Origin: Macrolepiota albuminosa | Lineage: Eukaryota; Basidiomycota; Agaricomycetes; Agaricales; Agaricaceae | Reading direction: 5' to 3' | Length of the DNA stretch: 64,000 nucleotides | Assembly: GCA_027475525.1 (NCBI GenBank) | Contig: JAMWFC010000060.1 | Location: forward strand, 930,001-994,000 | Shown: positions 28,000-63,884 of the stretch, piece after piece | Position numbering within the stretch: the stretch's first letter is position 1 | Layout of the letters: each line of letters begins with the position of its first letter | Position numbers and translations under genes: made by a program | The notes under the pieces: model-generated | What the model saw: only the letters and a program-made list of their open reading frames with translations | Database searches by the model: none | What the model was told of the DNA's origin: nothing

Positions 28000-29834
28000 T
28001 TATCCTACAGTTACGGGACCACAAAACAGGCAATAACAAGAAAACGGGGGCCCCAAACCGCCCTCACCTTCCCCTCCCCTTGGCCAGCCCCGGAAACCCT
28101 CCCCCATCCCCTCTGGACCATGCTTCCGCCACACTTCCTCGGCTAGCAGTTTCCAGGACGGGAGGGGCTCGCCCTTGTCCAGCACCCGTTCAAACCAGGA
28201 CCCTGGGGCAGGTACGTTCCTCCACCAGTGGGTGACCACTAATCGCCCCAGGAGGTCAAGCCCACGCTCCACCCCGGGGGTCGTCACCTCTGGGCGCTGC
28301 TCCTCCTGCAGAGAAGCCAGTGCTGCGGCAACCCCATCCAGGAGCAGACGGTGCTCCTGGGCCCAGCCTGGAGACGTTAGCAGAAGAAGGGAGCCGGCGG
28401 CAGGAGACTCACTCAGGGATGCCATGCACGTGACCACCACATTGCGACGCAGACCCTCTATTGACTCCTGCCCCAAGGGGGCCCTCTCTGGAATCCCCAC
28501 TCCCTGCCCCAACCTCACCCGCAATGCCTCCAGCTCTGCCTCCACCTCCCTGAGCGACTCGGGCCTCCTTCAACTGCCAAAGCATCTCCCGACCCGCCTC
28601 CAACTCCCTCCACACGTCGGCCTCCTCCTCGGACTCTCCTGGACGCTTCAGAAAGGCCCTCACATCCGTCCTCAGGGGCCGCCCCAACAGAGGCAAGAAC
28701 ACTGCTGAGGAGAGATGTAGGGGGGAAACCAGAGGCAGGGTCCCAGAGGGCAAACACGCCCTCTTGGAGGGCCCCGGGGAGGGGCTAGGCAATGCCTGCC
28801 TCTTCCCCTTGTCGGGGCGCCCCCCACGACCCTCGTGACCACCGGTCCCGGCCTGGGTTGCCCAGCACGTGATCAGGACCATGGGGTGGCCCTGGCCCCC
28901 CGACCCCCCACTGGGCGCCTCTGCAGGCGCTGCGGGCACCTCCCCCACTGGCTCCACCACCTCCATCCTCTGGGTGACCCCCCCCAGCGGCCACCCCTGC
29001 TCCCGGGAGACACAATGTGCCTTCCACAGCGCCGACATGGAACACCGCTCGTGGTTGAGGCGGCAGGCCTCGCACACGGACGTGTTCCGGTGGGATGAGA
29101 GGCCCAGAACCTCAAACAAGCAAGGGACCACTCGTCGGGTGCAGTGCAAACACTGCACCAAAGTCAGCAAGAGAGGCCAGAGGTAGGAGACCACTCACTG
29201 GTCCATTGCTCATGCACCAGACGTGGGCGGGTAGACCCTGGAGCCTCTCCAGGGCCTCCCCAAACAGCTCCTGCATCATGTCTGCCCACGCAATGCGTTG
29301 ATCTTCTGGGACCTCTGAAACGGCCCCTATCACCATCCCGGAACAACAAAAACGGGGGGCAGGCAGCCTAGGGCAGGGAGGGCGGACAGTCATCCGCGCA
29401 AAGATAGGCACGGGATGACTTGGGCGGGACTCCGAAGGAACACTGGGGCCTGCATCGGGAGCAGGCTCTGGGAGCCGGCTGGGACCCACCTCCGGGGCAG
29501 GAATGCTGTGTTGTTCTGAAAAAGGAAGGTCAGTTGCAATAAGCGACCAGCACAGCAACACCTATGCTGTTGGGTGAGCGCCGCTATGCGCTTCCGATCC
29601 AGGTGGCACCGGTACCGGGCATTCCGGGACTCCCACATGATCAGGGGTGCGACTTCGTTGATGGGGGGGGTGTTGGGGAATGCGTTGGCATACACAATAT
29701 GGTTGAGTTTAATGGTAAATTTTTTTTTCGATACGTGGCAAGTCAGGTGCCAGATCCCATGATTGGACCCCAGTCCGAACCACCAGCTACGCGCGCCTTG
29801 GAGGGTCTTGGCACTGAAGGGGGGGTGATGTCAC
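28000..29834 (-). CDS. Antisense Zn-cluster gene of element E (spliced, damaged)
   Basis: Lies opposite to pol, between pol and the 3' LTR. From the LTR edge the minus strand encodes an N-terminal domain (GIWHLTCHVSKKKFTIKL, YANAFPNTPPINEV, LIMWESRNARYR), a Pro-rich part, then after a 46-bp intron (29198-29153, GTGAGT..CTGAC..CAG, phase 0) a cysteine cluster: CLHCTRRVVPC, 15 residues, CEACRLNHERC. The spacing CX2CX6CX15CX2CX6C is like Zn2Cys6 DNA-binding domains. A disordered part and a coiled coil (ELEAGREMLWQLKEA, VEAELEALRVRL) follow, with a frameshift near 28545. Another intron probably lies near 29515-29565 but I could not fix its start. A nuclear regulator of the element is only a guess. 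A homologue follows element F. Confidence 0.7.
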
Positions 29835-30545
29835 GACCCCTCCCCTCCGGATCCACCCCGGGACACCCCCAGAACATCCCCCGGGACCCTCCCTCCAACC
29901 CCACAGGACACGCCCTGCCATCACGCGCATCAAGGGCTGCCATCAGCTGCCACCAACTCAGATCAACAATCAGATCATGCGAGTCACTTCTGGCCATCAC
30001 GCATCATGCATCACAGCTCTCTCCGCACTGATTGATCGTGCACCCCACATGTGCGATCCAAGTATACAGTCCCTGCCCGCTACTCAATGACTCCCAGAAC
30101 CCTGAGACCCGGTCCTGTAGTACTTATAGCGTAGCTCCCTATTGTATTTGCTAGTCTTGATATTAACTTGGATAACTTTGATTGTTGTGTGCCCTTTGCT
30201 TGTTGCGTGCCCTTTGCTTGATTGGTATGCACTGACTGGCATGCTTTTGACTGGCATGCTTGAATAACTGCGTGCTCTGAGTTTGGTACGTACTCCGTGA
30301 CTTTAACTTGCTAACTTGGTCTCGTCTTAGAACCTCCGGTTTACGACTCGACCCCACCCAATCCCCCAGCTACTCACAACCAAAAACCCCGGACTGAGTC
30401 CCCTCCTCCTAGGATTACCCCTGTCCACATCTTGAACCCCGGAGTCCTAGCCCCGGAGTTCCAGACACCTGAGTATCTGTAGGTCAAGTCCACATTGTAA
30501 GGGCGTTGCTTTCCCGGAAAGCCCCCGACTCAGCAGAACCTGACA
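29829..30545 (+). repeat. Element E, downstream LTR
   Basis: 717 bp, TGTCACGACC to GAACCTGACA, preceded by polypurine tract GAAGGGGGGGTGA. Compared with the upstream LTR it has many C/T and G/A differences and a few indels, including a short tandem copy of TGTGCCCTTTGCTTG near 30190. Confidence 0.85.
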
Positions 30546-31034
30546 GCAGGAAGCCTAGGGCAGGGAGGGGGTTGAGGACAGGGAGGGCGGACAGTCATCT
30601 GCGCAAAGGTAGGTGCAGGATGACTCAGGCGGGACCCCGGGAGGACACTAGGGCCTGTATCGGGAGCAGGCTCTGGGTGCTGGCTGGGACCCGCTTCCGG
30701 GACAGGATTATTGAGTTGTTCTGGAATAGGAAGGTCAGTTGAGATAGGTGAACGACACGGGAAGCACTCACATTGCTGGACAAGCTCCGCCACACGCTCC
30801 TGGTCGAGGCGAGCTTGGTATTGCGCATTTCAGGCTTCCCAGGCCATGAGGGGCACGACCTTGTTAGTGTGTGGGGGCATCGGAGAATGTGTTGGCGTAC
30901 GTGACATGGTTGAGTTTGATGGTAAATTTTTTTTTTGATACGTGGCAAGTCAGGTGCCAGATCCCACAATTGGACCCTGGTCCAAACCACCGGCTACGCA
31001 TGCCTCGGAGGGTCTTGGCACTGAGGAGGGGTGA
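30546..31034 (-). pseudogene. Second copy of E 3' region: antisense gene, 5' part
   Basis: Matches 29355-29828 but lies beyond the downstream LTR. On the minus strand an ORF opens with ATG at the inner edge of the next LTR (31040) and reads through HLTCHVSKKKFTIKL into YANTF, homologous to the N-terminal domain of the antisense gene above; it then breaks. It shows that the N-terminal reading is conserved between copies. GCAGG at its left end suggests the preceding LTR inserted here. Confidence 0.6.
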
Positions 31035-31259
31035 TGTCATGACCCCTCCCCTCCGGATCCACCCCAGGACACCCCCGGAACACCATCTGGAACCCTCCCT
31101 CTGACCCCACAGGACACGCCCCGCCGTCATGACCACCGACACCGCCATCAGCTGCCACCAGCCCCAATCAATGATTGGATCATGCGACTCGCTTCTGGCT
31201 ATCATGCATCACGCATCACAGCTCCCTCCATGCCAATTGATTGTGCGCCCCACACGCGC
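31035..31259 (+). repeat. Element E, third LTR, truncated
   Basis: First ~225 bp of an E LTR (TGTCATGACC start), after the usual G-rich tract. It is cut off at 31259 by LTR copy L-B. Confidence 0.8.
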
Positions 31260-32026
31260 TGATATGATGCTGTACCAGCAGTCAGGGACACAATATGCAC
31301 CAGAAGTCAAAATAAACATTTAATTATAAGGCTGAAAACTGTAAGCCTCCTGGTAGCAGTCTCAACAAATTATATCTCCAAAAACACCCCAATAAATACA
31401 CAGACAGTACAGAACAAAGGGCAGGGACCAGCTCAAGCTATCCACTCAACAATAGTCCAACCACTGTAATGGGGAGGGGAAGCATGGGAGCTGGCAGAAG
31501 TGACGAAATGGGATCAATTTGTGATGATCTAGATCAAGATCAGATCTGACAATGCCCGATTTGACATGACTGAAAGGGGAAAGGAAAAGAAGCATGGATG
31601 ATGATCTAGATCAAGATCAGATCTGACAATGCCCGATTTGACATGACTGAAAGGGGAAAGGAAAAGAAGCATGGAATGCAGGGAAGCGCTAAAAGGGGAA
31701 AGAAGGATCTATGAATGGGATCGTGCTAAATGGAGCTGAAGCAAATGGGGAAGTGGCAATCAGAGACATCTGGAGGAATGGTGGAACAAGAAGTTGAATG
31801 GTGGAACTGGTGGCACCGAAACATGCCTCCCAAAAGGGAAATTGGACTATCAAATATGTTCTGGAGGCTGGGGAGTTGACAACAAAAGAGTCATGTGTAG
31901 ATAGTGGTCTGTGCACCAGAAAAACAGTATAAATAGCCCAAGTTTAGTAGAGAATAGACAGGCATTTGATAGGCAAAGGCTCAGTGGTTCCCAGGGAGTG
32001 AATCACCTAGGCTAGAGTTTATTGAA
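31260..32026 (-). mobile_element. LTR of family L, copy B (truncated)
   Basis: Reverse-orientation copy of 5808-6714. The 3' terminus is complete (TGATATGATGC on the plus strand) but about 170 bp of the 5' end are missing where the G1 LTR begins. It carries one 77-bp duplication. Confidence 0.7.
31523..31676. repeat. 77-bp tandem duplication inside LTR L-B
   Basis: Two copies with offset 77, starting GATGATCTAGATCAAGATCA; absent from copy L-C, which has the unit once at this place. Confidence 0.85.
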
Positions 32027-32260
32027 TGTAACGAAGTTACGAAGTTTAGAGAGCTTAGTGTGCACACACAACACTGAATCAGACCAGACCGGTCTATTGA
32101 CAATGTAGTATACACAAAAATAAGCTGCTTTGTAAGCAGCTGGTAAAACTATTTATAATAATGTAAACTAATATTATATTATAATAAATATAATATAATA
32201 TAAACTACTCTACAGTAAGTAAAGCTATGTGGCCAATGCCACATAGCGGACTACGCTACA
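32027..32260 (-). repeat. Element G1, 3' LTR
   Basis: 234 bp, TGTAACGAAG to ACGCTACA on the plus strand (TG..CA), AT-rich centre. The tract CACCCCCC right after it is the polypurine tract of a minus-strand element. Confidence 0.75.
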
Positions 32261-32305
32261 CACCCCCCAATCAGACCGAGCTATGGTCTTAAGATAATAC
32301 GACGG

Positions 32306-35300
32306 TCATGCCGTCGGTAAGTCAGGGATGGGGGCAATGGGAGAGTCCCCAGGCTCCCGGAATGGATTGGCAGTTGCGTCGTCCATGTCGTAGTCGAGGA
32401 GTTCATCCTCGGGTGCGGGCGCGTATGAAGTGCCCAAAGGCCCTGCAACTGGCAGGGAATCATCATAGTCCCAGAGGGGGGACAGTGTGAGGTTGGGGTC
32501 GATGGTTGACCCCAGGGCAGATGGTTGGGGATCAGGAAGATCCCCAGTGTCGGACGGGTACTGGCGCGTCCAGATCTCACGGGCATGAATGTCTTGCCCG
32601 ATGAGGAGGTACATCCCCTTGGTGAGTGCCTCGTCGTAAGCACGACAACTGTCCTGCTGCTGGAGCATCAGGCATTGGCGATTGCCAATGGTGGCCTCGC
32701 GCCACCCATCCCACTGAGCGATGGACTGGGGTGTATCATAGTGGTCAAGGCGTTGTAGCCTCTCGTCGTCGATAGCGGCCGCCTCGTTGTAGAGCCGGCT
32801 GTCGCTGAAGAATAAATGGGCCAAGTAGGTGACCCCATAAGTATACGCATGGTCAGCCCAGCTGACCGGAATTTGATTATGAAGAAGGATGCGTAACACG
32901 TCCGAAGTGGTGAACACGGAAGCTGACGCTTCCGGGATGTCCACAGCCCGAGCCTCAAAGTTAGGGTCATCGGCATGGAGGGGCACAAAGACTTGCCCCG
33001 TGGCTGCCTCGTACTCAGCCACGGCCTCTTTGTAGAGGCCTGGCCAGGCGAATACGTAGGCCAGGTACTTGTGTACCGTGGCCTTGGAGGCGCGGCTGGC
33101 GCTGAGGGTGCATACAAGCGCAAACCCAAAGAGGCTGCGCCAATGAATGCGCATGGCATGGTCCATGGCCAGACCGGTCCATACGTTGGACATCCCAGGA
33201 CGTCCATAGAGAAGGGCATATGAGCCCAGGTAGTCCAAAGCAAATGGTTGCTTTGGATCAGGGGGGGTAAGGCCGACGAAGGCAATTTTCCCTCCCTCTT
33301 TGCGGCGATAGAGCCGCAATGGCACAATCATTCGCAGGACGTTCTCCCGCTCCTCTGGACTCGCGAAGGGTACCGCGATAGTCCTATACTCGACCTTGTC
33401 GAGTAAATGAGACATAGCTCTGTCTCGGGCCGTAGGGTGGCAGTTGAGCGCCACCCGCTTGAATTCGTTGAGCAAGAGGTAGCCCAACTGACGCTGACAA
33501 AGCGGCGTAAACTGGTTGTTAACCAGTGCATGAAGTCTGCGGACTTCTCGAGGACTGCGGGGAAACCCGCGAGGTGCCACTTGGTACACCTTACTGTTGT
33601 GGGGCGTCGCCGCAGCGTTGCCCTTTTTATCATCCTCAAAGGACCTGGCTGCGTGGGCTTCTTGCCCGACGAAGATGGTATTGGTCACTGGCGACCAATA
33701 GAATTGGGGAGCTAACCCCACGCCAAAGAATGAGTTTTGGCGCTCAATAGTGTGATCTCAATAGATCACAACACCAAGTGCATCAGGGATGCGCCCAGTT
33801 TGGTCCTCGAGGAGGGCAGCTCCTTGCTTGGCGCTATCCTGTGCCTGATGTTCCATCTTGGCCCGTCGATTGCTGTTGCGCTGTTCGCATGCCATATGTT
33901 GTGCCGCCGTCTCGTGTGGCACAGGGGATTCCATACGAGCCTCTTCAGGCTCCTCATACCAATCGTCGTCGGAGGGCAGGAAGGGCAGCCTCTCTGGCTC
34001 CGACTTCTCAGACCGTGGGTCCATAGCCTACACACACCACGGGAGTTGGGCTGGTGGGCCCTCTACCAGTATAGCGGGTAAAAAGGGGATGTTAGCCCCT
34101 GGGGCCCCTTTCGGGGCATCCTCGGGGAAGTGCACGTTGACGTATGCGTGCCCTTCCGGTTGCTTACCCCGACAATCCTTTTGGGGTTGTGAGGCCTTAG
34201 CCTCAGTGGGGCGTGTGCTCATGCCCCTGGAACTCTGCTCCCCAGAGTACGTGGTGGAAACCACGGATACTGGTTGCGAAGACGCGACCTCAGATGCGCT
34301 GCTGGTGAGGCGCTGGATAAGCCGGGGGGCGGCTGGAGCAGGGGCATCTTTGTAGGGGAGGATGTCCCGTCCTAGGCTGGCCTCCCAGCCGGGGGCAGCA
34401 ACGCTCGACTTAATCGAGCGGGAGGGCACGTCCTCCACTCCTTGCCAATGTGCCCTTTTGCTGGAGTCGGTGTCCCGACTCGGGGGTGTAGTCTGCCGCT
34501 TATGAGCAGCCGAAAGGGCAAGGAGATCAGTTTTGTGCTGAGCGCGCATATGATCCATGTCGTCCATCATCTGGCAGATGAGGACAACTGCCTCTGCATT
34601 GCAGAGGAATGATGACTCTGCGGGTACATTGTACCCGTTATCTCCCAGACGTTGGAGAAGGGTAGCCAGGACTAAGTCCTGGTTGAGACTAGGCTCGACA
34701 GCCCGTGCTTTTCCTTTGTCGCGTCGAGGACGCAACTCTTCTTCCGAGCTGGGCTCGGATTGGTGCGGCATTTCCAGCCGCTGTAGCAAGGAGAGCTTGG
34801 CCAAGCTCTCCGTCGGCGCATCAGCCGATGAACTGATGCTCCGTTCTGTATTGAGAGTTTCTGTACTCTCAATGGCCGCGGTGGCCTGCACGAGGGATGC
34901 TTTGCATCCCTCTAGATTGTTATTTGGTGCTGTGGTCGACAGGGAAATTGACCGGCCTCCCTTGGCTTGCGACTCATGCAAGTCGCTGTACTGGGGCATT
35001 GTGCTCCAAGCCCCCATCCAAGCTGGGGGGTACGGCATCATTACGGGCACACCACCCATCCCAGGGTAGTGCGCCAGGGCGGTAAACTGGGGAAAAGGAT
35101 GTGTCCCCAGTTGCCCTGTTGCCGGTACGGGGGCAAGCTGCCTCCATGCCGACGCTGCTTGGGGGCTGACTAGCCCCCCGTAGGCCTGTTGCTGGGATTG
35201 GCCCTCAGTGTGATGTGGCGCATAAGCGCCCGGTACTGGTTGTTGGGGCTGATAGCCGCCCACAGGTGTGTTCTGGGGCATGAAGTTGCCCTGCATGGGT

Positions 35301-35514
35301 TGAAGTGGTGGATAGCCACTGATCACCGGCTGCTGTGGCAGGTAGCCTGCTGCTGTGGGAAGCCCACAGCTTGTTGCGATTGTCCTCACTGGGGCGCATT
35401 TTGGGCGAGCGGGGGAGCCATCTGCCCCCCCCCTTCAGCCGATGGTAAGACCGACGGCGTACTCTCAAACTGCTGCTGCTGCTGTTCACTCAAGTCCACG
35501 GGCATGCTGTCCAT
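32306..35514 (-). CDS. Element G1 ORF3, unknown function
   Basis: A long extra ORF after pol. ATG at 35514 (MDSMPVDLSEQQQQQ) leads into a Pro/Gln/Gly/Met-rich region; a G9 run near 35430 probably hides a frame error, then 35389-34028 is open. A helical part has LLQRLGDNGYNVPAESSF and MMDDMDHMRAQHKTDLLALS. TAG at 34028 and TGA at 33758 interrupt, but the frame is the same on to 32306. The C-terminal domain has FYWSPVTNTIFVGQEA, VAPRGFP, GRPGMSNVWTG, MRIHWRSLFGFALV and IPVSWADHAYTYGV. No membrane segment or signal peptide, so not an envelope protein. Homologous to G2 ORF3 in position, length and motifs. I recognise no family. Confidence 0.75.
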
Positions 35515-37227: not shown

Positions 37228-37284
37228 CGCCCCCCTTTCAGACCGTTGTATGGTCTGCAACACTCAGCTCTGTGACCCATGACA

Positions 37285-52507: not shown

Positions 52508-53470
52508 GCAGGGTGTATACCCCTTTCTCGGGGTTCCTGGCTTCGCAGGGCAGTTGGTAGCGTAGTGGCCTGGTTGGCCACACGTGAAACAAGTCCCCGA
52601 CTGCCCCGGTGGGTTGGCCGGCTTGAAGTCTGGCCTTGGTTTAGGACGTTCTCCGTCTGGCGCCCGCTCTGGGCGTGGGCGACTCCGCCCTCGGTTCGCA
52701 GCATGGGTTCTGCGTACAACAAACCGCGTGTTGCGGTCACGGTCCAAATCGGTCTTTTTGGCCAAGAAGGTCCCTACATGCTGACCCCGTGAGGGTGTCC
52801 CACCAGGCGGTAGTCGCCTGGGTCCCCCTTTGTGTCCACTCCGATGTTCGTAGTGGTTAGCAGTCTTCAGAGACTGCTCATACCGGATGGCATATGCCAC
52901 AAATTCTTCCACATCGTTGACTTCTGGGGACAATCCGTCCTCACGTATCAAATAGCGGCGCATGTCCGCTGGAATGCCATCCAAGAACGTTTCAAGCATT
53001 GTATACCCGTCTGGGTATACTGCCATGTTCTGGGCATGGTCATTAAGGGTATCATAGAACCCTTGTACTCCCAACTTCTCGGTGTACTTGGCGGACTGGA
53101 AGTCCCGCCGTGCATCCTGGAGCGTTGAGGGGTGTACGAATCGATCATACAGTCCTGTAAGGACTCCTTTGAACGTCCAGTCATATTGGACACAGTTGAC
53201 GTGCAATACTGCCCGTCGAAACCAACCCATGGCCTCTCTGGCCAAGAACTCAGACAGAACGAAGATTCGTTCTCGTTCCATATGGTCACCCCCGTATAAG
53301 CACATGGCGAGATGGGTGCATACATCCATCGCCCAATCTTCCAGGTCGCTGAACTTGGATGCGCCTGTATAGGCGCAAATGTGCCTACTGTCTGCTTTAC
53401 GCAGCTTCACTCTGTCTGGTGATAGGACCCCATACAGGATCAGCGCATCAACAGCAGGCGACAGCAACAC
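52496..53470 (-). CDS. gag: Element G1 gag, capsid and zinc knuckle
   Basis: Open for 324 codons: KFSDLEDWAMDVCTHLAMCL, GWFRRAVLHVNCVQYDWTF, LGVQGFYDTLNDHAQNMA, and the knuckle CFTCGQPGHYATNC. It matches G2 gag residue for residue in layout. The N-terminal extension present in G2 is missing because element F begins at about 53475. It builds the particle shell. Confidence 0.85.
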   Translation of the reverse strand: MLLSPAVDALILYGVLSPDRVKLRKADSRHICAYTGASKFSDLEDWAMDVCTHLAMCLYGGDHMERERIFVLSEFLAREAMGWFRRAVLHVNCVQYDWTFKGVLTGLYDRFVHPSTLQDARRDFQSAKYTEKLGVQGFYDTLNDHAQNMAVYPDGYTMLETFLDGIPADMRRYLIREDGLSPEVNDVEEFVAYAIRYEQSLKTANHYEHRSGHKGGPRRLPPGGTPSRGQHVGTFLAKKTDLDRDRNTRFVVRRTHAANRGRSRPRPERAPDGERPKPRPDFKPANPPGQSGTCFTCGQPGHYATNCPAKPGTPRKGYTPCAHL

Positions 53471-53624
53471 GGCACCGACTCAAAATACCTTAGCGCACGC
53501 TAATTAACCAATTTTGGCGATATTTGATGGCCACGCACGGCAAGAAGCAGATCCGATCAGTGATAACGCCGACGGCAGACAGAATGACAACTGACAGATG
53601 GCATCAGTCACTGACGACAGCGCT

Positions 53625-53778
53625 TAGGGAGAAGCCTGATGATCTATCAAAAACTGACGGACAGCTTGGCGTTTGACCTTGGCGTCTGACACTGCTTAGC
53701 GTAGGGAGAAGCCTGATGATCTATCAAAAACTGACGGACAGCTTGGCGTTTGACCTTGGCGTCTGACACTGCTTAGCG
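53625..53778. repeat. 77-bp tandem duplication in F leader
   Basis: Offset 77, unit starts TAGGGAGAAGCCTG. Confidence 0.9.
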
Positions 53779-53940
53779 CTTTGATTCGGCGCCTGACATT
53801 GCTAAGCACTTTGGACAGACAGAAGGGTGATGGATTGATGATTTAGCACTGCGATCTGCCGCCTGGTGGCGCTAAGGGTCTTGAATGGACGGTAGGGATC
53901 TGAAACCGTTGGAGCTACCCCTATGAAATTTTCCAGTTTA

Positions 53941-54094
53941 CCGCACTTTGGCAATGGTTGGTCACTGGTGACGGTGAACTCCTTGTAGTATATAAAGTAC
54001 TTACCAACTTGTACATACCGCACTTTGGCAATGGTTGGTCACTGGTGACGGTGAACTCCTTGTAGTATATAAAGTACTTACCAACTTGTACATA
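53941..54094. repeat. 77-bp tandem duplication in F leader with TATA box
   Basis: Offset 77, unit starts CCGCACTTTGGCAATG; it doubles the TATATAAAG box. Confidence 0.9.
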
Positions 54095-54381
54095 CGCCAT
54101 CGAACAACAGACCAGAGTTTCCTGCTCCCACTTCTTCAGTCCCCTTTACGCACAAGATCTCATTTATGGTCGGCAACGTCGAACTCATCGGCGGTTGCAG
54201 ACTCTCGCCAACTTTCGACACATTCGCGCCTTGCAACTACGGCAGGCATTATCGACGCTTAGGACTTTGCTAAGCTTACCGTACTCTTGCCGCTCACATT
54301 GCCGTGTTCACTTACCGCTTCTTCCCTAGGCGCTTTACCTTAGCGCTTTACACTTGCCGACCCCATTACCGACTTTTCCCC

Positions 54382-54535
54382 TTTTTCATAGGCGCGTTCT
54401 CTGGGACCTGCCCGGGACTCCTCAAATCACTTATAGCGCGCCCAACGCAAGCAATTGGTTTTTCATAGGCGCGTTCTCTGGGACCTGCCCGGGACTCCTC
54501 AAATCACTTATAGCGCGCCCAACGCAAGCAATTGG
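54382..54535. repeat. 77-bp tandem duplication upstream of F gag
   Basis: Offset 77, unit starts TTTTTCATAGGCGCG. Confidence 0.9.
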
Positions 54536-54616
54536 TATGGTAACACTTAAGCTATATTTGTTACTGACCAAACTTTGGGCGTCATCAAATTGGAGCCCAC
54601 CGCGAGGGATCTCTAG

Positions 54617-57283
54617 GGCAGAATTCCGCCAGAAACCCATCTCCAGCGTAGGCGCCGCCTGCTAGACCAGTCGGCAGAAGGCATAGCTCCTTCCCACCCA
54701 TCAACTCCACAACCACCTGGTGCCTTACCGGGTCTCTCTCTTGCACAGGAACTACAGAACGCCACTGTAGACAAATTTCCTGATCTCTTCCTGCGTTCTC
54801 TTGACTTTAGCGCCGACGACCTCTTAGCGTTGCTGCTTGCTGTACCGCAACCAGTCACACCCATTACTCCGTTAACACCTCTTTCTCAGCTAGCCATTTC
54901 TCTTACCCCGTCGCCAATCTCTAGAACTCCTTCCCCGCAACCGCTAACCGAACTCGCCAACACAGTCGCCATGGAACAACCAGTTCAGTGCATGCCGCCA
55001 CGCAACCACTTCTCGGCACTGAAATGGGACGAGTCCAAGCCATGGGAGCTCTCCCAGTATTTTAAAGAATTAGAATATTTATTCAGGGATTGCAACATTA
55101 CCGACCACACACAGATGAAGGAGTACGCGGCAAGATACGTATCGTATGACACAGCAGAAACGTGGACAGGTTTGACCAAATTTGCCGCCTTTGTTCCTGC
55201 TGCCCCGCCAGTTCCAGCCCAAGGTGCTTCGTATGAGGACTGGAAGACGGCAGTAATCCAGCTGTACCCTGGCGCAGAGGAGGCTACCCGATACACGGTA
55301 AACGAGCTGCAGAAACTAGTACAGGAATCTTTTGACAACGGCACTTCTTCTCTTGGCGCATTCTCCACGTATTACCGCGAGTTCCAGAAAATCGCTAGGT
55401 GGCTTCTGCAGAACGGCAAGCTCTATATTAACGAGGAGCGTCGCCTATTTCAGCAGGGCATCCCGACTTCACTGTGGACTCGTATTGCTCGTCGCCTAGA
55501 GATAGTTCATCAGGCCCATCACCCTGACGAGCCCTATAATGTTGCCGACGTCTTTGAAGCCGGTAAATGGGTTCTCAAGGGGACCGACACTGGCGTTGGT
55601 ATACAATGCGCTAGGATGAGCCCACCCCCTGAGCAAACTAACGGTATTATTCCCATCCCGCCTCCTACTACCGACTTCGTTAAGAAAGAGGAGCTCAATG
55701 CTGCCATTACCGCCGCTGTCGCTTCCGCTATGACTCATATTGAAACCATGATTACCACCAACCTCACTGCTAACCGACCCGCTAACGTACCCACACCTGG
55801 CCCTTGCCACTTCTGTGGGGAAATTGGCCATACTATGACTAGAGGACGCTGCGCTACTCTCGAAAATTATATTCGGCAAGGGAGAATTCGAAGAGCTATC
55901 GACGGCAAGATAGTTCTTACCAGTGGCGCCACCATTCCCAACTACCCAGACAAGAAGTCCTTCCAGGAGCGAGTTGATGAATGGCATAGGCGCAACCCAG
56001 GACAAATCGTTACCGGCATGCTTTCTGGCAACGCCAACCCCGACCCTGAGCAGGCGACTCAGCAGCAAATGATTCACGAGGTCTTACACTTTGACAGTGT
56101 TGGCGACCGCCCTACTTTCTTGCAGGAAGAGTGTATCGCCAAGCTACAGCAGGAATTGGATTTGCTGAAGAATCAGGTGTTTGATGGGGTTGAAGTTAAG
56201 CAGCCCAAACAACCTCTCAAAGGATATAAGCCAATGCCTCCCGCTAGCAAGTTACCGACTCCTGCTCCTGCCGCACCGCCTGTTACTTCCCCTGCTACTA
56301 CTCCAGAACCATCGTCATCCGCTACCGCTCCTGAACCGCCTTTGCTGCCTCTCCATCCCTACTCAGGGATTCCCGACCGTTACCATGCTCCTGCACAACG
56401 AAACTTTGCCGCTCCTGAGAAACGTCCTGAGGGTGGCTACCGACCTACCGCGCCAATTTTCGATATAGAAAAATCCAACCACGTCTTCAGCCGCATCATG
56501 AAAACTGCCGTTACCTTGTCAGTAGAAGAACTTTGTAGTATTGCTCCCGACGTCCGCAACCAGGTCAAGACCGCTGTCACTCCCCGACGACCCTTGGCGA
56601 CAGCCGTTGCCGAGGTTGATGAACTCGACGATGCGCTTCCCGGTTTCTCTGTTACCATCGACTCTCCCGACACCGATGAACCTCCTGCCGACCCCATCGC
56701 TAACGCCACCTCTGTGGATCCAGTGGAGACCTACCTTAGGTCAGTGGACCATGGAGAGGACCTGGCAATTCTTACCGTCACTCAAGAATCGCACACTATT
56801 CGCTCAGTAGCACTAACTGTCGACAACAAGCACGAGGTAGAGGCGATTGTGAATAGCGGGTCTCAAATTATTTCTATGGCAGCAGAAGTTGCTAACGATC
56901 TAGGCCTTATTTACGACCCTACCGTTATACTAAACATGCAGAGCGCTAACGGTACGGTAGACAGATCCCTAGGCCTCGCCAAGAATGTGCCGTGCACCCT
57001 TGGCGACATTACGTTTTATCTTCAGATCCACATTTTACGCTCCCCCGCATACGACCTACTACTTGGCAGACCTTTCGACGTCTTGGCGCGATCAGTCGTC
57101 AAGACAGTTACCGACGAGGAAACAACCCTCACAATTAGCGACCCCAATTCCGGAATCCGACGAACGGTGCCAACGTTCTCTAGGGGACAACAAAAAGGCA
57201 CCCTCACTAAGCCGCCAGAGTTTACCGACCAACATGCCAACAAACGACCCTACCGGTGTTTTCACAGACCATCGAGGAGGTGA
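54617..57283 (+). CDS. gag: Element F gag and protease
   Basis: Open from a stop at 54614. The best start is ATG at 54971 (GCCATGG context, MEQPVQCMPPRNHFSALKWD), though an upstream exon is possible. Capsid: ELSQYFKELEYLFRDC, YRVNELQKL-like, STYYREFQKIARWLL. Zinc-knuckle variant CHFCGEIGHTMTRGRC, then NYIRQGRIRRAIDGKIVLTSG. A Pro-rich linker leads to the protease: HEVEAIVNSGSQIISM, with Asn where the catalytic Asp should be, and AYDLLLGRPFDVL near the end. The frame shifts at about 57240-57280 into the pol frame (SQTIEEVIGEDHGD). Confidence 0.8.
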   Translation, partial: GRIPPETHLQRRRRLLDQSAEGIAPSHPSTPQPPGALPGLSLAQELQNATVDKFPDLFLRSLDFSADDLLALLLAVPQPVTPITPLTPLSQLAISLTPSPISRTPSPQPLTELANTVAMEQPVQCMPPRNHFSALKWDESKPWELSQYFKELEYLFRDCNITDHTQMKEYAARYVSYDTAETWTGLTKFAAFVPAAPPVPAQGASYEDWKTAVIQLYPGAEEATRYTVNELQKLVQESFDNGTSSLGAFSTYYREFQKIARWLLQNGKLYINEERRLFQQGIPTSLWTRIARRLEIVHQAHHPDEPYNVADVFEAGKWVLKGTDTGVGIQCARMSPPPEQTNGIIPIPPPTTDFVKKEELNAAITAAVASAMTHIETMITTNLTANRPANVPTPGPCHFCGEIGHTMTRGRCATLENYIRQGRIRRAIDGKIVLTSGATIPNYPDKKSFQERVDEWHRRNPGQIVTGMLSGNANPDPEQATQQQMIHEVLHFDSVGDRPTFLQEECIAKLQQELDLLKNQVFDGVEVKQPKQPLKGYKPMPPASKLPTPAPAAPPVTSPATTPEPSSSATAPEPPLLPLHPYSGIPDRYHAPAQRNFAAPEKRPEGGYRPTAPIFDIEKSNHVFSRIMKTAVTLSVEELCSIAPDVRNQVKTAVTPRRPLATAVAEVDELDDALPGFSVTIDSPDTDEPPADPIANATSVDPVETYLRSVDHGEDLAILTVTQESHTIRSVALTVDNKHEVEAIVNSGSQIISMAAEVANDLGLIYDPTVILNMQSANGTVDRSLGLAKNVPCTLGDITFYLQIHILRSPAYDLLLGRPFDVLARSVVKTVTDEETTLTISDPNSGIRRTVPTFSRGQQKGTLTKPPEFTDQHANKRPYRCFHRPSRR

Positions 57284-57543
57284 TTGGCGAAGATCACGGA
57301 GATGTGGCGCTAACGCTGGAATATGACCATTCTACTGGTCTTGTAAATGTTATGTCTACTGCTTTTCTTGACCAAGATGTTTTAACTACTTTACCCGCTA
57401 CCGACGCAGAGCTTCCCCAGAAAAATCAAAACATTACCGACTCCTCTCTTGCCTACTTGTACCTTACCGCTTCCGAATCCTTTCAAAATATTGCGTCTAC
57501 CGATACTTACCTCACTACTCTTCCCGGAGCCTCGTCTCCTGCC
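57284..57543 (+). pseudogene. Element F gag-pol linker, cut by solo LTR
   Basis: Frame 57256-57543 encodes GEDHGDVALTLEYDHSTGL and STAFLDQDVLTTLPAT, ending at the target copy CTGCC. It resumes with VLGLAAPQD at 58490 when the insert is skipped. Confidence 0.75.
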
Positions 57544-57736
57544 TGTCAGGTTCCACTGAGTCGGGGGCCTTCCAGGAAAGCAACGCCCTTACGATGCGGA
57601 CTTGACCTACGAATACTCGGGTGTCTGGAACTCCGAGGCTAGGGCTCCGGGGTTCAAGACGGGGACAGGGGTAATCCCGGGATAGGGGACTAGAGTCCGG
57701 AGGTTTTGGGTTGGAGGTAACTGGGGTTAGAGGGGG

Positions 57737-57890
57737 TCGAGTCGTGAACCGGAGGTTCTAAGACGAGACCAAGTTAGTAACTTAAGAGTCGCAAAGTGCG
57801 TACCAAAGCTTAGTCGAGTCGTGAACCGGAGGTTCTAAGACGAGACCAAGTTAGTAACTTAAGAGTCGCAAAGTGCGTACCAAAGCTTAG
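57737..57890. repeat. 77-bp tandem duplication in solo E LTR
   Basis: Offset 77, unit starts TCGAGTCGTGAACCGG; other E LTRs have it once. Confidence 0.9.
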
Positions 57891-58330
57891 AGCATGCGAA
57901 TACTAAGGCGTGCCAGTCGAAGCGTACCAAACAAGGCGTACCAGTCAAGCAAGGGGCACGCAATATCCAAAGTAACAGTTATGCAATATCAAGACTGGCG
58001 AATACAGTGGGGAGCTATGCTATAAGTACTACAGGAACGTGTCTCGGGGTTCCAGGGTGTCTAGGATGAGTTCCGGGGGCCATTGAGTAGCGGGCAGGGA
58101 CTGTATACCGGGATCGCGCGTGTGGGGACGCGCGATCAATTGGCGTGGAGGGAGTTGTGATGCGTGGTGCGTGATGCGTGATGGCCGCGCCGCGAGATCC
58201 GATCGTTGATGGCGGTTGGTCCCGGGGTCCATGATGCAAGGGTCCCGGGGGGCTGGCTGATGGTGATCGTTGACGGATGATGGCGGCCGTTGATGCGTGT
58301 GATGGCGGTGCCGGTAGTAGTGATGGCGGG

Positions 58331-58484
58331 GCGCGTTCTGCGGGGTCGGGGGGAGGGTTAGCGGGTGGGGTTCCGGGGGTGTCTCGGGGTGGATCCGGAG
58401 GGGGGGGGCGCGTTCTGCGGGGTCGGGGGGAGGGTTAGCGGGTGGGGTTCCGGGGGTGTCTCGGGGTGGATCCGGAGGGGGTTG
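58331..58484. repeat. 77-bp tandem duplication in solo E LTR
   Basis: Offset 77, unit starts GCGCGTTCTGCGGGG, in the G-rich terminal part. Confidence 0.88.
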
Positions 58485-58489
58485 TGACA

Positions 58490-60261
58490 CTGCCGTTCTT
58501 GGACTTGCCGCTCCCCAGGACACAGTTCCCCTTCCCACCTCTGTATATAACCAAGCTAACGCTCCCAAAAGGAAAGGGGTACAAGTCAAAAAGAAATATA
58601 AGCCAGTTGTGCTTAAAACAAAACCCGTCGCTACGCACTCTCCCGAGACGTTTAGAATCAAGCGCCAGATCATTGGCGACCCTCTTGCCGACATGCCGAC
58701 CTTATCACCAAACCCGCCACCCTTTCAGCCCACAGGACGTTTTACCGCGGAGCGCCAGCAGCAGTTCGCCAAGGAGCACGACACAGGATTTTTGACCAAA
58801 GATGAGTTGAATGTCCTTACTGATCTTGTTGCTAAGCAGGATAAAGCCTTCGCCTGGGAGGACTCAGAACGTGGCAGTCTACGTACAGATTTCTTCCCGC
58901 CTGTCGTCATCCTGACCATTCCTCACGTGCCGTGGACTGAGCACAACCGACCGTTACCGCCTGGGATCGAAGCTGAGGTCTGCCAAATTATTAGGACCAA
59001 GATACAGGCTGGCGTCTACGAGCCCTCCAATAGTTCTTACCGCTCTTGTTGGTTTTGTGTCCTCAAAAAGAACGGCAACCTCCGCATAGTCCACAGTCTC
59101 GAGCTGCTGAATAGAGTTACCATTTGACACTCTGGCGTACCGCCTTTCTCTGACCACTTTGCCGAGTCCTTTGCCGGGCGTATTTGTGGCACCACCCTTG
59201 ATCTCTACGTTGGCTACGATGAACGCTTAATACACCCTTCTTCCCGCGACCTCACTACTTTTCAAACTCCGTTTGGCGCCTTGCGCCTAGTTACCTTGCC
59301 AATGGGCTGGACAAACTCAGTCCCCATATTCCACGACAACATCACCTTCATCCTCCAACCCGAGATACCGCATAACGTCCTAAGCTTCATTGATGACGTT
59401 GGTGTCAAAGGCCCCAAAGACTGGCGACTCGTAAACGGCTTACCGGCGACCCACCCCGACAACTCCAACATTCGCTTAGCGCTATGGGAATTTTTCCAGT
59501 TGCTCAACCGAGTTCTCCAACGTATGAAGTATAGCGGTGGGACTTTTAGCGGTCACAAACTCCTCCTTTGCGTGCCAAGGTTCAAAATACTTGGTCACAT
59601 CTGCACTCCCAACGGACGCGTTCCCGACGAGTCTCGCTTAGCACTCTTGGAGCGATGGGGTCCTTGCCGCGACTTATCTGAAGTTTGCGCCTTTCTTGGT
59701 ACCGTTGGCGTTCTCAGGATATTCATCAAAAACTTTGCCCATTGTGCACATGCTCTTAACCGACTCACCCGCGCTAACAAGCCCTTCAAATTTGGGCCAG
59801 ACCAGGTTACCGCACAACGAGACTTAGTAAAAGCCCTACAAGACGCCAAGCCCCTAGTCCCCATCGATTATACCTCTGCTGACCCTGTTATCTTGGCGGT
59901 GGATACCTTGTACATTGCCATTGGCTACTTCTTGTGCCAGTGCCTTAGCAACAATTGGAAACAGCGACGCTACAATCGCTTTGGGTCGATCACGCTAAAC
60001 GACAGAGAGTCTCGCTACAGTCAGCCTAAGCTAGAGCTCTATGGACTGTTCAAAGCATTCCGGGCGCTAAAGATGTATTTAATTGGCGTGCGGAATCTTA
60101 TTGTTGAAGTCGACGCTAGGTACATCAAAGGCATGCTGCAGAATCCCGACATCCAGCCATCCGCTAGCATGAACCGGTGGGTAGTCGCTATCCTCATGTT
60201 TCACTTTGAGTTGGTACACGTCAAGAGCTCTTTCCACGGACCAGATGGACTCTCTAGGTGA
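58490..60261 (+). CDS. pol: Element F reverse transcriptase and RNase H
   Basis: One frame, cut only by TGA at 59125-59127 (VTI*HSGVPPF). Entry region FQPTGRFTAERQQQF and LVAKQDKAFAWEDSERG; RT: FFPPVVILTIPHVPW, VYEPSNSSYRSCWF, LKKNGNLRIVHSLELLN, FQTPFGALRLVTLPMGWTNS, catalytic FIDDVGVKGP near 59395, KFKILGHICTPNGRVP-like thumb. RNase H: LAVDTLYIAIGYFL, ESRYSQPKLELYGLFKAF, IVEVDARYIKGML, SSFHGPDGLSR. A working-length enzyme; with the stop it is inactive. Confidence 0.88.
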
Positions 60262-60560
60262 CCACGGCAGCCTGGCGACCCGGCAGTGGACCCACAGGCT
60301 GATAGCGATTTTGAGGACTGGATCGACCGCTTACATGGTTTCGTGCACCTCATACAACAGCCAATCCCCCTACTACGACGGCAACAGCCTACCAGTATCT
60401 TTTTACATCCCATTGTCCCTTACCGCCCCGAGACCTTTAGCACACCCCTCACGTTCTACACGGCAAGCATTTTCAGTCAAAATTCGCCTCCCGTAAAAGT
60501 TGTACAAGAGCCCCATCCGCTAAGGGAAGACAGCAGAAACCTGACCTACGATGCTGTTCC

Positions 60561-60714
60561 CCGATCCGCCAAAGCAAAGGCAGAAGACAGCCGCTTGTTA
60601 ATCGTTGAACAATGGCTACAAGACCTTAAGCGACCCGCCGATCCGCCAAAGCAAAGGCAGAAGACAGCCGCTTGTTAATCGTTGAACAATGGCTACAAGA
60701 CCTTAAGCGACCCG
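60561..60714. repeat. 77-bp tandem duplication in F integrase linker
   Basis: Offset 77, unit starts CCGATCCGCCAAAGC; it doubles the text LIVEQWLQDLKRPAD. Confidence 0.9.
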
Positions 60715-60975
60715 CAGACCTTACTGACGAACAGTACGCGACCTTTATCCGATATGCCACCCACTTCTTCTTTACCAACAACCGCCTTTGGCGACGAAAT
60801 CGAGATGGCGCTCACAAGCTGATCATCAAGCCAGAAAGTCGCTTACGAGTCCTGCGCGCCATGCATGACGAGCTAGGACATAGAGGTCTGTACGCTACTT
60901 GAGCTTCTCTGTTAGAACGATTCTGGTGGCCACACGCTAGTGCCGACATCGCCTGGTACATTAGGACTTGCCACC

Positions 60976-61129
60976 TCTGCCAAATTCAACAAACATGCCA
61001 AGTACTCATACCGCCAACCGTTGCAACGCCAGCTCCCCTCTTCAGCAAAATCTCTGCCAAATTCAACAAACATGCCAAGTACTCATACCGCCAACCGTTG
61101 CAACGCCAGCTCCCCTCTTCAGCAAAATT
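60976..61129. repeat. 77-bp tandem duplication in F integrase
   Basis: Offset 77, unit starts TCTGCCAAATTCAACAAAC; it doubles the text following the finger cysteines. Confidence 0.9.
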
Positions 61130-62038
61130 TACGTCGACACCATGCATATGCCCAAGTCTGGTCACTACAAGTACATCATTCAAGGTCGTTGCTCGCTAAT
61201 CCACTGGCCTGAATTTCGAATGCTCCAAAGAGAAAATACCGAGGCGGTCGCCAAGTGGCTATTTGAAGACGTCATTTGCCGTTGGGGAGCGCTAAGAGAG
61301 ATCATCATGGATAACGGTGCGCCCATCATCAAAGCGTTAACTTACCTCGCCAAGAAATACAATATACATCATATTTGAGTATCTGGCTACAACAAGCGTG
61401 CCAATGGCCTGGTAGAGAGACCACACTTTGACGTTCAGCAAGCGCTCTTCAAGGCAGTTGATGGCGATGAGTCTCGTAGGAGTGAAGCGACTTATTCAGT
61501 ATTTTGGTCGGAAAGAGTTACCATTCAAGCGACCTATCTTCAGCCAGCACCCAACAGTATCTTAGCGACTACCGACCTTATCGCCAGATGAGCTATTGAC
61601 CTGCAACAAAGGAAAGAAGATTTAGAGCAACTCCACAAGGTAGTCTTTAGTGCACATCGCCAAGCAGCATTGCGATTCGAGACCGAGCATAGTGCCACTA
61701 TCAAGGATTACAACTTCCCAAGGGGTGCGCTAGTACTCATGCGCAACCCCAAAATCGAGACCTCATACAACAAGAAAATGCGCCCGCGCTATCTAGGACC
61801 CTTGGTAGTTATCTCTCGTAACCGTGGAGGCGCTTACGTGCTCTGTGAATTAGATGGTTCAGTACTACATCGACCTGTTGCCGCTTTTCGCCTATTGCCG
61901 TATCTCGCCAGAGAACACATTGACTTGCCGCTTGAAGCGCTAGATATCGACACCGCCAAGCTTAGAGAACTGGAAGAAACCGAATTATTGGACGATGATG
62001 ACTTACCGACTCTGGTTGAAGAAGAAGAAAATGATTAG

Positions 62039-62458
62039 AAAAGAATATTATTGATAAGCTCCTTTTTCTATTACTTACTTTACTTATCTCTCTTGCCGAT
62101 ACTTACTGTACTATATCCAACAGACAATTCTTTACATAGTCAAGTCGCAGCGCTAGCGTGTCGCCAATGCTTAGCGCATTGCGCAACTCTCGCCAAGGGT
62201 TTTTCGCTATGATGATTTACTGAGCGTTTTCCTTTTCTCAAAAATTTGTCTAAGTCCCTCACCTACAACTCCTCTTGCTAAAACCTACTTTAGAATACTT
62301 GCCGCTTGCTCTCTCTTTGCTTTCTTGACTCTGTGCTGTGGGGCTAACTTAGACTATGGAACTTATCATTTCACTTCAAAAAGAGGCGGCAAAAATTGAT
62401 ATATGGGCGGTAACAAAAGATAAAATATATACAGCGACCACTCTACGCTAAGGTCCGC
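62039..62458. other. Spacer between F pol and antisense gene
   Basis: AT-rich, with no ORF; the 3' ends of the convergent pol and antisense transcripts should lie here. No LTR terminus recognised. Confidence 0.4.
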
Positions 62459-63884
62459 TCAGTCACTCTCATTGTCCATCGGCAAGGAGTCGTCGGAAAT
62501 TGGCAAAGAGGAGTCGCGAAGTGGAAGAAGGTCGCCCAGCAAGATGTTGTTAGCGGTCTGCCAATCCATGGCGGCTTGACAGTCGTCCTGGTAGTCGTGA
62601 AGAACGCGAAGGCTACGACCAAGGTTGGAATAGCGCAATCTTAGCGCCATTAGCTGCCCTCGAACTCGTTCCCGTTCCCGCTCCATTGACGACTCCATTG
62701 TTGCCGCCCTCCTTGAATACCACTCCAGCATCTCGCGAGGATTGAGCGCCACAACTGGGTAGACGAGATCTTGCCCCAGCCACTGGAAGGCGTCGCCAGT
62801 CACTGTCGGCTGCGGCTGAGGGGTCCAGGCAGGATTAATCCTGGCGATCATGGGGCGCCTTGGCTCCAGCCCGGCAACATCCTCTGGGTCCGACACTTCC
62901 CAGGGGGCAACGTTACCGTAGGGAGGCAGCCAGTGCCACTCTGGCTCCTCCCTGGCGATTCCTGCCGCTCCCTCCCCTTCTCCCGCTACCGCCTCCTTGA
63001 CGGGGGCCTCCTCCTCGTCACCTTCGCGCTGAGTCGCCAAGGTCTCGTCTGGCTCCCCCTCCGCGTCCTCGTCACCCGCCATTGTCGGGGGGCTTCCTTC
63101 TCCCATGGTTGTCGCCACTGTTGGTTCCGCCTCTTGGGGCTCTTCCCTTGGTGGCACGTCCATTACCGCATCGTCCTTGTCGACGGTCGGCAGTGAAGCC
63201 CCTCTCAGGTGAATAGGGGAAAGCAACTTGCTGGGCCCAGCTTCAGTATCCCTTGGCGGCAGGCGGCTGGTGGCAAGCGCCTTCTCCAGCTCCTCCATCT
63301 CCACGTCCTCGGGGGTAGGGGGAGGAGACTCCACTACCCGTGCGCGTTTAGCCTTGCCCTTTCCTTTGGTGGGCGAGGGGACTTGTCGTTTTGAAGGGAC
63401 CGTAGTCCCTTGGCGCTCTCCAGCGCCACGGTTGCCGACTGTTGCAGATTCGTCCCCTTGACGCGTCAGCAGCGCCAGGGAACTCTTGCTAATTGTGGCC
63501 GCGTTGCCAGCAGCCTGCTTCTTCTTCTTCTCCTCGACGAACTCCCGTGCCCTCTTGACGAGGACGGCACGCTTGAAGGTGCGCTCCACTACCGCGTCGG
63601 GAGCTCCACCACATTCGCGACTCTTAGCGCTGTCCAAAGTACAAGCCCGCTTTAGCGTCCCGCACTGGTAGCAGGGCTGGCCACCGGTGGGGTACCAACA
63701 CCCCTCTGGGTCGTTGTCGGCCCAGCATTTGTCGCACTACAGAAGTGTTAACAGAAGCGGTAAAAAGAGCTAAAGTACTTACCGCTCCTTGGGAGTCCTT
63801 GAACTCCCGTCTTGCTGCTGGGCTTGCTGTCTTCTTATCCTTCATCTCCGGCAAGACCACTCCCGCTTCCATTCCCTCATCCAA
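62459..63884 (-). CDS. Antisense Zn-cluster gene downstream of element F
   Basis: Minus strand. Exon text up to SQGA (63783) is joined by a 46-bp intron (63782-63737, GTAAGT..TTAACAC..TAG, phase 0) to CDKCWADNDPEGCW, then CYQCGTLKRAC: a CX2CX8CX8CX2CX6C cluster, Zn2Cys6-like. A basic stretch (KGKGKAKRARVV, probable nuclear signal), a long acidic disordered region and a C-terminal helical part (MESSMERERERVRGQLMALR, a coiled coil) follow; the frame is open to 62459. Upstream the frame goes on past a TGA near 63896 toward the window edge, so the 5' end is incomplete. Same layout as the E antisense gene. It looks intact over 430 codons, so it may be expressed. Confidence 0.75.

Follow-up and report, generated by a model that had tools for sequence, protein, structure and literature searches.

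To our knowledge, the functions of the extra genes carried by LTR retrotransposons are mostly unknown. In the retrovirus HTLV-1, the HBZ transcript is spliced, and VANDAL elements are DNA transposons whose VANC gene lies in sense orientation. The VANC proteins of the Arabidopsis VANDAL transposons are described as element-encoded, sequence-specific anti-silencing proteins. HBZ is described as a bZIP factor encoded by an antisense transcript; its nuclear location is stated in PMC11963269, and an antisense promoter within the 3' LTR in PMC7264820. In plant Ty3 elements, antisense genes of the aORF-3R type are reported for Grande (gene23), RIRE2, and Retand (PMC7264820, PMC11963269). According to these accounts, the Grande product is nuclear and expressed from a promoter upstream of gene23, and 97% of the Retand clusters have antisense ORFs bearing a TRP28 domain.

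Here, we describe the antisense genes of two Ty3 elements, E and F, in a 64,000-nucleotide stretch of Macrolepiota albuminosa DNA (the window). The first-pass annotation knew of no described fungal counterpart with a spliced zinc cluster; as a statement on fungal counterparts in general, this has to be corrected, since Boty-like Ty3 elements of Botrytis are reported to bear the antisense gene brtn (Zhao 2011, known here by citation), and one Boty-like gag-pol is described as having a chromodomain. A fungal antisense gene with several introns and a six-cysteine (Cys6) cluster was not announced in the titles and abstract openings of the open-access matches listed, and no open-access paper combining Termitomyces, LTR retrotransposon, and gypsy was found.

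Elements E and F

Both antisense genes sit opposite the 3' end of their element, in the order integrase, gene, 3' LTR, which is the location between pol and the 3' LTR that defines an aORF-3R of LTR retrotransposons (Table 1). The two LTRs of E are 81% identical, and a LINE-like insertion occupies about 16.2 to 23.4 kb inside this element. The LTRs of F share 96-99% identity over the aligned pieces, the 3' LTR lying past the window end (L039 1527-2540). E and F proved as divergent as first proposed, the best local matches being 26% (146 aa) and 32% (56 aa) for RT and 23% (60 aa) for integrase. The chromodomain attributed to E was recovered after the integrase (PF00385, Pfam E-value 1.1e-13 in copy L012), and 28 of the 30 E loci have a piece homologous to it; it was absent from the F integrase pieces scanned, three in number and 77-122 aa long.

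In nearly all loci tested, homologs of the antisense gene adjoin the same pol. The chromodomain piece lies opposite the gene in 28/30 E loci and in 10/10 loci of the group L066-L075, as does the F integrase end in 8/8 F loci with long flanks, all counted on gene copies collected via the antisense gene itself. The genome, which probably belongs to Termitomyces or a relative of it, contains 675 F-type motif sites.

Exons, introns, and state of the copies

The clusters and the 46-bp introns preceding them were found on the minus strand where the first-pass annotation had placed them, but the extents it gave for the genes were too short. The E gene comprises four exons or more, separated by at least three introns, of which introns 1 and 3 are new. 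In the F gene, five exons precede the last one; its six exons extend over 62459-64857 (minus strand), beyond the window, and are separated by five introns, all in phase 0. The start of F exon 1 is 170 bp away from the 3' LTR. When a loose six-cysteine pattern was run in six frames over the window and a 9-kb flank, it matched only these two clusters, each located right after an AG.

Table 1. Features of elements E and F and of their antisense genes (window positions; L039 positions for features past the window end)
Feature	Position	Strand	Remarks
Element E, Ty3 chromovirus	12708..30545	+	LTRs 12708-13425 / 29829-30545, gag, RT, integrase
E exon 1 region	29566..29702	-	Start codon changed and frame damaged by frameshift in window copy
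E intron 1	29516..29565	-	Phase 1; donor lost in window copy
E exon 2	29199..29515	-	
E intron 2	29153..29198	-	Phase 0, 46 bp in window; abuts first cluster cysteine
E exon 3	28413..29152	-	Cys6 cluster, coiled-coil start; bipartite NLS-like motif in other copies; frameshifted in window copy
E intron 3	28368..28412	-	Phase 1, 45 bp
E exon 4	28000..28367	-	Protein end
Element F, Ty3 type, no chromodomain detected	53420..64000 (window part)	+	5' LTR 53420-54587
F exon 6 (last)	62459..63736	-	425 aa, open frame in window copy; Cys6 cluster, NLS-like motif, coiled coil predicted at the C-terminus
F intron 5	63737..63782	-	Phase 0, 46 bp; end abuts first cluster cysteine
F exon 5	63783..63956	-	58 codons; tblastn with Termitomyces proteins
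F intron 4, part within window	63957..64000	-	
F exon 4	64036-64007 (L039 507-536)	-	Past window end
F exon 3	64402-64088 (L039 588-902)	-	Past window end
F exon 2	64524-64456 (L039 956-1024)	-	Past window end
F exon 1	64857-64573 (L039 1073-1357)	-	Past window end

Splice signals are widely retained. Among 30 E copies, GT..AG borders were present in 24 for intron 1 and in 29 each for intron 2, whose length varies from 44 to 50 bp, and intron 3, and the CTRAY motif was found in 30, 30, and 28 copies, respectively. At the site of E intron 3, the proteins P0021 and P0022 from Termitomyces are shorter by about ten columns. F intron 5 has GT..AG borders and a branch-like YTRAY in all 28 copies (the stricter CTRAY in 12/28). 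In all eight F loci compared, the five introns are bordered by GT..AG, and in four of them (L002, L003, L004, and L008) all six exons are open. The core of F intron 5 evolves about three times faster than the neighboring exons (p-distance 0.308 versus 0.113 in the preceding and 0.095 in the following exon); the core divergence of E intron 2 is barely above that of the exons (0.281 versus 0.223 and 0.230).

Both window copies are mutated, that of E as listed in Table 1 and that of F by three stop codons; exon 1 holds two of them and exon 5 the third. This third stop is confined to the window copy, with none in the seven other loci read.

Selection on the encoded proteins

The dN/dS ratios of the last exons lie far below 1, with medians of 0.12 in F (20 distinct copies with an open stretch longer than 370 codons) and 0.33 in E (7 such copies), and are lowest in the cluster block (0.04 in F and 0.16 in E). 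Without the open-frame filter, values of 0.13 for F (24/28 loci past the length filter) and of 0.27 and 0.38 for E (8 and 7 of 30) were obtained. Eight of ten control frames reached at least 0.99: the frames shifted on the same strand gave 0.99-1.91, and two reverse frames per family gave 1.07-2.64, the third (0.23 in F, 0.49 in E) being the one whose codon positions mirror those of the real frame. Integrase pieces from the same loci yielded 0.05 and 0.08 in F and 0.15 and 0.26 in E; constraint on the antisense gene is of the same order, about half as tight. The cluster cysteines are retained in 27-28 of 28 F copies and 28-30 of 30 E copies. Judged from these sequence comparisons, the antisense ORFs look like selected protein-coding genes. 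Two of the outcomes that the first-pass annotation had named as refuting, a lack of homologs next to other elements of the two types and a dN/dS near 1, did not occur.

Two other explanations were considered. Chance ORFs opposite pol are ruled out by the dN/dS of the control frames together with the cysteine-pattern scan. A function of the antisense transcript as RNA, by formation of dsRNA or by transcriptional interference, with the protein being incidental, is hardly credible. Convergent genes would indeed yield complementary RNA, and regulatory antisense RNA is discussed in PMC7264820, but selection acts at the codon level, the frame is conserved, and it is the F intron and not the exons that evolves fast. 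These observations contradict RNA as the sole function.

Features of the proteins

Six cysteines are present in both clusters, but their spacing differs, with C-x2-C-x6-C-x15-C-x2-C-x6-C in E and C-x2-C-x8-C-x8-C-x2-C-x6-C in F. Fungal Zn2Cys6 domains (PF00172) are spaced CX2CX6CX5-12CX2CX6-8C. Membership in this family was rejected, considering that the Pfam gathering score was not reached and that the E loop measures 15 and the second F spacing 8 residues; Zn_clus scored below the cut-off in 3/10 E-type proteins (best E-value 0.18) and gave no hit in any of the 26 F-type proteins. No Pfam family, including TRP28 (PF04195) and bZIP, was matched by the 10 E-type or 26 F-type proteins.

As first proposed, a C-terminal coiled coil is predicted for both proteins, in the form of long helices. 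A strict bipartite pattern resembling a nuclear localization signal (NLS) occurs in 12/26 F-type and 8/10 E-type proteins (means of 0.1 and 0.0 after shuffling) and a looser one in 14/26 and 7/10 (1.3 and 0.8 after shuffling), with patterns picked after the sequences had been seen and the proteins being related to one another. The strict pattern is missing from 14 F-type and 2 E-type proteins, some of which have incomplete or unusual gene models. AlphaFold models were poor (mean pLDDT of 56 for the E-type protein P0021 and 54 for the F-type protein P0005) and, at this low confidence, lent no structural support to zinc or DNA binding.

No relatives outside Termitomyces were detected among the 7991 and 7994 candidates chosen for scoring because they shared the most words, and a further protein search with 14 candidates listed three proteins, all from Termitomyces. 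Scans of IMG/VR found a pattern match in 40 and 20 stretches, none of which was confirmed, and a PDB sequence search gave 1 and 3 hits that were not credible (best E-values of 1 and 0.04).

Relation between the two antisense genes

The E and F antisense genes are likely homologous. Intron position, the succession of features, and the resemblance of the basic motifs speak for the common ancestry that had been proposed; profile comparison does not, as the hhalign probability of 0.2-2.5% is nonsignificant with these shallow alignments. We regard it as rather unlikely that the two genes were captured independently and are merely alike. Such an origin would agree with the nonsignificant profile comparison, with the unlike cluster spacings, and with blastp, in which the best of 260 pairs had an E-value of 6e-4 per pair and the six best listed left the cluster uncovered. 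It must account, on the other hand, for a phase-0 intron at the identical residue in both genes, a coincidence with a chance of about 3 in 1600 by our estimate if the three E introns were placed at random, and also for the common order of cluster, basic motif, and coiled coil and for the common site within the element.

Discussion

That two distant Ty3 families each bear a selected antisense gene with conserved splice sites, for a probably nuclear and zinc-binding protein, suggests a regulator supplied by the elements themselves. On balance, we favor the reading that each element carries, encoded in antisense, its own gene for a nuclear DNA-binding regulator of its transcription. A promoter in or adjoining the 3' LTR would drive the antisense mRNA, and splice-site conservation suggests that this mRNA would be spliced in the nucleus. 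The introns may persist because the RNA that is reverse transcribed is the sense strand, on which their splice signals would go unread. The product, of about 450-720 aa, would possess a compact and probably zinc-binding Cys6 cluster, could enter the nucleus by means of the bipartite motif present in many copies, and might self-assemble through its C-terminal coiled coil. Most likely, the regulator would bind to the LTR or internal DNA of its own family and tune sense transcription. Considering that the gene is kept in many copies, an activator or anti-silencing factor accounts for it slightly better than a pure self-repressor; the suppression of copies put forward in the first-pass annotation is only one option among several.

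Between E subfamilies, the antisense protein shows 35% identity, versus 67-86% for pol. Faster divergence than that of pol is expected of a family-specific DNA-binding protein. It could also stem from relaxed constraint or from an arms race with a host factor.

Alternatively, the product might be a replication accessory protein, nucleic-acid-binding or structural, that aids the particle or the pre-integration complex in nuclear import or target choice. Purifying selection across many copies, its strength being of the order seen for integrase, as well as the NLS-like motif and the predicted coiled coil are consistent with such a role, and import of the pre-integration complex has been raised for plant antisense ORFs (PMC7264820). 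We nevertheless consider it improbable. If the introns need to be removed, production of the protein would require antisense transcription of integrated DNA and could not start from the Gag-Pol genomic RNA, and its cluster appears closer to fungal DNA-binding clusters than to zinc knuckles.

Returning to the transcriptional regulator, we put forward tentatively that E and F may share an old family of retrotransposon transcription factors, spliced in antisense from integrated copies only, which would be common to two distant Ty3 lineages, of which apparently only one has a chromodomain, and which would have radiated in one fungal lineage into numerous subfamilies whose DNA targets diverge. The introns, the conservation of their splice sites, and codon-level selection, followed across dozens of copies, speak for a real antisense accessory gene, and the introns would mark the strand and place of its expression, namely integrated DNA in the nucleus. 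Many copies and subfamilies within one genome make the specificity of regulator and LTR testable. Predicted fungal proteins of the E and F type are filed as "hypothetical protein" and may pass for host genes.

Antisense accessory genes are already known from Grande, Retand, HTLV-1 (HBZ), and Boty (brtn), and the E and F genes are a variant with several introns and a Cys6 cluster. In contrast to the TRP28-bearing aORF-3R of Retand, the E and F proteins match no Pfam family, and their genes combine the Cys6 cluster with three to five introns, the word "intron" being absent from the main texts of PMC7264820 and PMC11963269. Like E and F, brtn (Zhao et al. 2011) is an extra antisense gene in a fungal Ty3 element, a likeness drawn from the cited title, but its host Botrytis cinerea is an ascomycete, unlike the host of E and F. 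With the fungal Zn(2)-Cys(6) factors (PF00172), the proteins share six cysteines in two CxxC-x6/8-C halves, at longer or shifted spacings. HBZ is a bZIP protein of a retrovirus, whereas E and F encode a cysteine cluster; the likeness to VANC is one of functional analogy only. If the tentative reading of an old, shared family is true, the E and F genes would be the fungal equivalent of HBZ or VANC, with introns restricting production of the regulator to DNA copies, excluding the genomic RNA.

Results

Opposite the ends of two Ty3 elements, E and F, the minus strand carries two six-cysteine clusters, each directly after a 46-bp intron, and the placement of this intron before the first cluster cysteine, proposed in the first-pass annotation, was confirmed at both sites. 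A six-frame scan of 73 kb (the window and a 9-kb flank) with the loose pattern C-x2-C-x5-9-C-x5-18-C-x2-C-x5-9-C matched only these two sites, both right after an AG. While these clusters and introns stand, the F gene was annotated too short, reaching 64857 and not 63884. Several Termitomyces relatives of its product have a longer N-terminus, and tblastn places the extra parts upstream of the known gene, towards the 3' LTR. The start of the F antisense gene lies 170 bp from the 3' LTR, and the gene comprises six exons and five introns, all of phase 0. GT..AG is kept at all five introns in each of the 8 loci whose flanks are long enough. Every exon is open in four of these loci, giving a product of about 716 aa, and the gene is broken somewhere in the other four, including the window copy with three stops. 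The E antisense gene has at least four exons, and its three introns retain GT..AG in 24/30, 29/30, and 29/30 copies; the window copy has lost the intron-1 donor and contains frameshifts.

All three stops of the window F gene (1073-1357 of L039, the DNA beyond the window end, and 63783-63956 of the window) lie at codons that encode Arg or Trp in other copies. This fits C-to-T or G-to-A change, possibly from RIP-like or methylation decay.

Exons of the F antisense gene and exact tandem duplications at offset 77
Feature	Position	Strand	Basis
F exon 1	64857-64573 (in L039)	-	tblastn with Termitomyces proteins, locus reading
F exon 2	64524-64456 (in L039)	-	as exon 1
F exon 3	64402-64088 (in L039)	-	as exon 1
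F exon 4	64036-64007 (in L039)	-	as exon 1
F exon 5	63956-63783	-	tblastn, locus reading
F exon 6 (last)	63736-62459	-	cluster exon
Duplications, window	9823, 10085, 31522, 36226, 36562, 36921, 43738, 49892, 52354, 53625, 53939, 54382, 57736, 58328, 60561, 60975
Duplications, L039	2139, 4076

The host elements are strongly different, as had been claimed. E is a chromovirus with Retrotrans_gag, RVT_1, RNaseH, integrase, and Chromo matches; F matched a retroviral-type protease and RNaseH, and its RT, read by eye, has the motif FIDD versus YLDD in E. In RT, the best local E-F matches had 26% identity over 146 aa and 32% over 56 aa; in integrase, the best had 23% over 60 aa. The chromodomain ascribed to E is present, and in the pieces of F scanned none was found. 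E also contains a LINE-like insertion (16200-23400) with a 1,091-aa ORF, whose weak endonuclease match lies just below the Pfam cut-off, and a reverse-oriented E-type LTR fragment lies within the F pol region (57537-58480).

The two antisense genes are probably homologous. Their introns lie at exactly the same residue in the same phase, cluster, basic motif, and coiled coil follow one another in the same order, the genes occupy the same place in the element, and the basic motifs are similar, e.g., KRRASPSPSPGPSKRAR (E type, locus L066) and KRPASPSSVASAKRPR (F type, Termitomyces protein P0008), although this motif was chosen after the sequences had been seen. However, cysteine spacings differ between the clusters, the best E-F blastp pairs did not cover the cluster, and E-F profile comparison gave probabilities of only 0.2-2.5%. 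The earlier argument for common ancestry draws support from intron position, order of features, and similar basic motifs, and not from profile comparison. If homologous, the genes were either inherited from a common ancestor or transferred between elements.

Both genes recur beside related elements in the 100-Mb genome, where match counts are lower bounds. The F last exon yielded at least 114 pieces from the best 99 of 1,223 candidates; 94 of these pieces, from best-scoring candidates, lack an internal stop. A 33-base F-cluster motif occurred at 675 sites with at most two mismatches (control, 0). Both types have divergent subfamilies. By script, the intron preceding the cluster is shared by 15 of the 16 loci L060-L075; in L075, which the script missed, the reading frames are compatible with an intron in this position that has a different kind of donor. 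Open lengths on either side of the intron are identical in nine loci (L066-L074). When orientations of pol matches and antisense genes were compared, a chromodomain piece lay opposite the gene in 28/30 E loci and 10/10 loci L066-L075, and the F integrase end did so in 8/8 F loci with long flanks. The chromodomain piece was not found in E loci L024 and L035, perhaps owing to short or broken flanks. The F product retrieved 20 proteins and the E product two, every one a "hypothetical protein" of a Termitomyces strain, which suggests that the fungus probably belongs to Termitomyces or is closely related to it. By eye, the F proteins of copies L040-L059 look mosaic, with disordered-middle blocks in varying combinations, which suggests recombination between copies or assembly chimeras.

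Selection has acted on both genes, with dN/dS among copies well below 1. The F last exon is open over 400 or more codons in 22/28 copies. Among distinct copies with an open frame of more than 370 codons (20 of 28 for F, 7 of 30 for E), median last-exon dN/dS was 0.12 for F (188 pairs, excluding those with dS <= 0.02) and 0.33 for E (21 pairs). In 75-codon blocks it was lowest in the cluster (F, 0.04; E, 0.16), followed by the C-terminal part (0.08-0.09; 0.17), and highest in the disordered middle (0.27; 0.54). The two shifted same-strand frames gave 1.65 and 1.91 (F) and 0.99 and 1.12 (E), and two of three reverse frames 1.07-2.64; values for the third, in which codon positions mirror the real frame, were 0.23 (F) and 0.49 (E), consistent with leakage. 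Without the open-frame filter, values were 0.13 for F (24/28 loci past the length filter) and, for E, 0.27 across the cluster (8/30) and 0.38 across 600 nt (7/30). Integrase pieces from the same loci were more tightly constrained, by about a factor of two (F, 0.05 and 0.08, 8 loci; E, 0.15 and 0.26, 25 and 27 loci). Mean p-distance was 0.308 in the F intron-5 core versus 0.113 in the preceding exon and 0.095 in the following one. The contrast was small in E (intron-2 core, 0.281; flanking exons, 0.223 and 0.230), which may reflect the damage in most E copies.

All 18 exact tandem duplications found at offsets of 40-159 in the window and L039 have an offset of 77. They are probably an assembly artefact of uncollapsed k=77 contig joins, one that would disrupt reading frames and confuse TE annotation. 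Several lie in the F pol region and LTRs; none lies inside either antisense gene. Some copies may be chimeric. Elsewhere, two near-identical LTR-like direct-repeat pairs (31260-32025/43272-44059 and 36898-37227/48534-48786) interleave and are not nested, pointing to recombination or misassembly. Two long minus-strand ORFs without a Pfam match (32306-33721, 471 aa; 34028-35389, 453 aa) share their strand with Ty3 integrase and RT ORFs and are possible extra sense ORFs. At 7933-9664, 126-bp tandem repeats overlap a minus-strand ORF with tetratricopeptide repeats.

Discussion

The antisense transcript would be the sole RNA in which the splice signals of these genes are readable, and the sense genomic RNA, the replicating form, would retain the introns; judging from retroelement biology, the protein should thus be made only from integrated copies. 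Its cysteine cluster, bipartite NLS-like motif, and coiled coil suggest a nuclear DNA-binding dimer. Between E and the subfamilies of L075 and L076, pol pieces are 67-86% identical and antisense proteins only 35%. Such faster divergence would suit adaptation of the protein to the DNA of its own family; relaxed constraint is another possible cause. A trans-acting repressor would protect defective copies too, and by this reasoning selection in many copies leads us to lean towards a positive or anti-silencing role.

Among the paper titles and abstract openings listed by our searches, no multi-intron antisense gene with a six-cysteine cluster was found. Plant elements are known to carry antisense accessory genes between pol and the 3' LTR, and the Grande product is nuclear, according to passages of PMC7264820 and PMC11963269. 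Fungal Boty elements are cited as carrying an antisense gene, brtn, and the best studied analogue is HBZ of HTLV-1.
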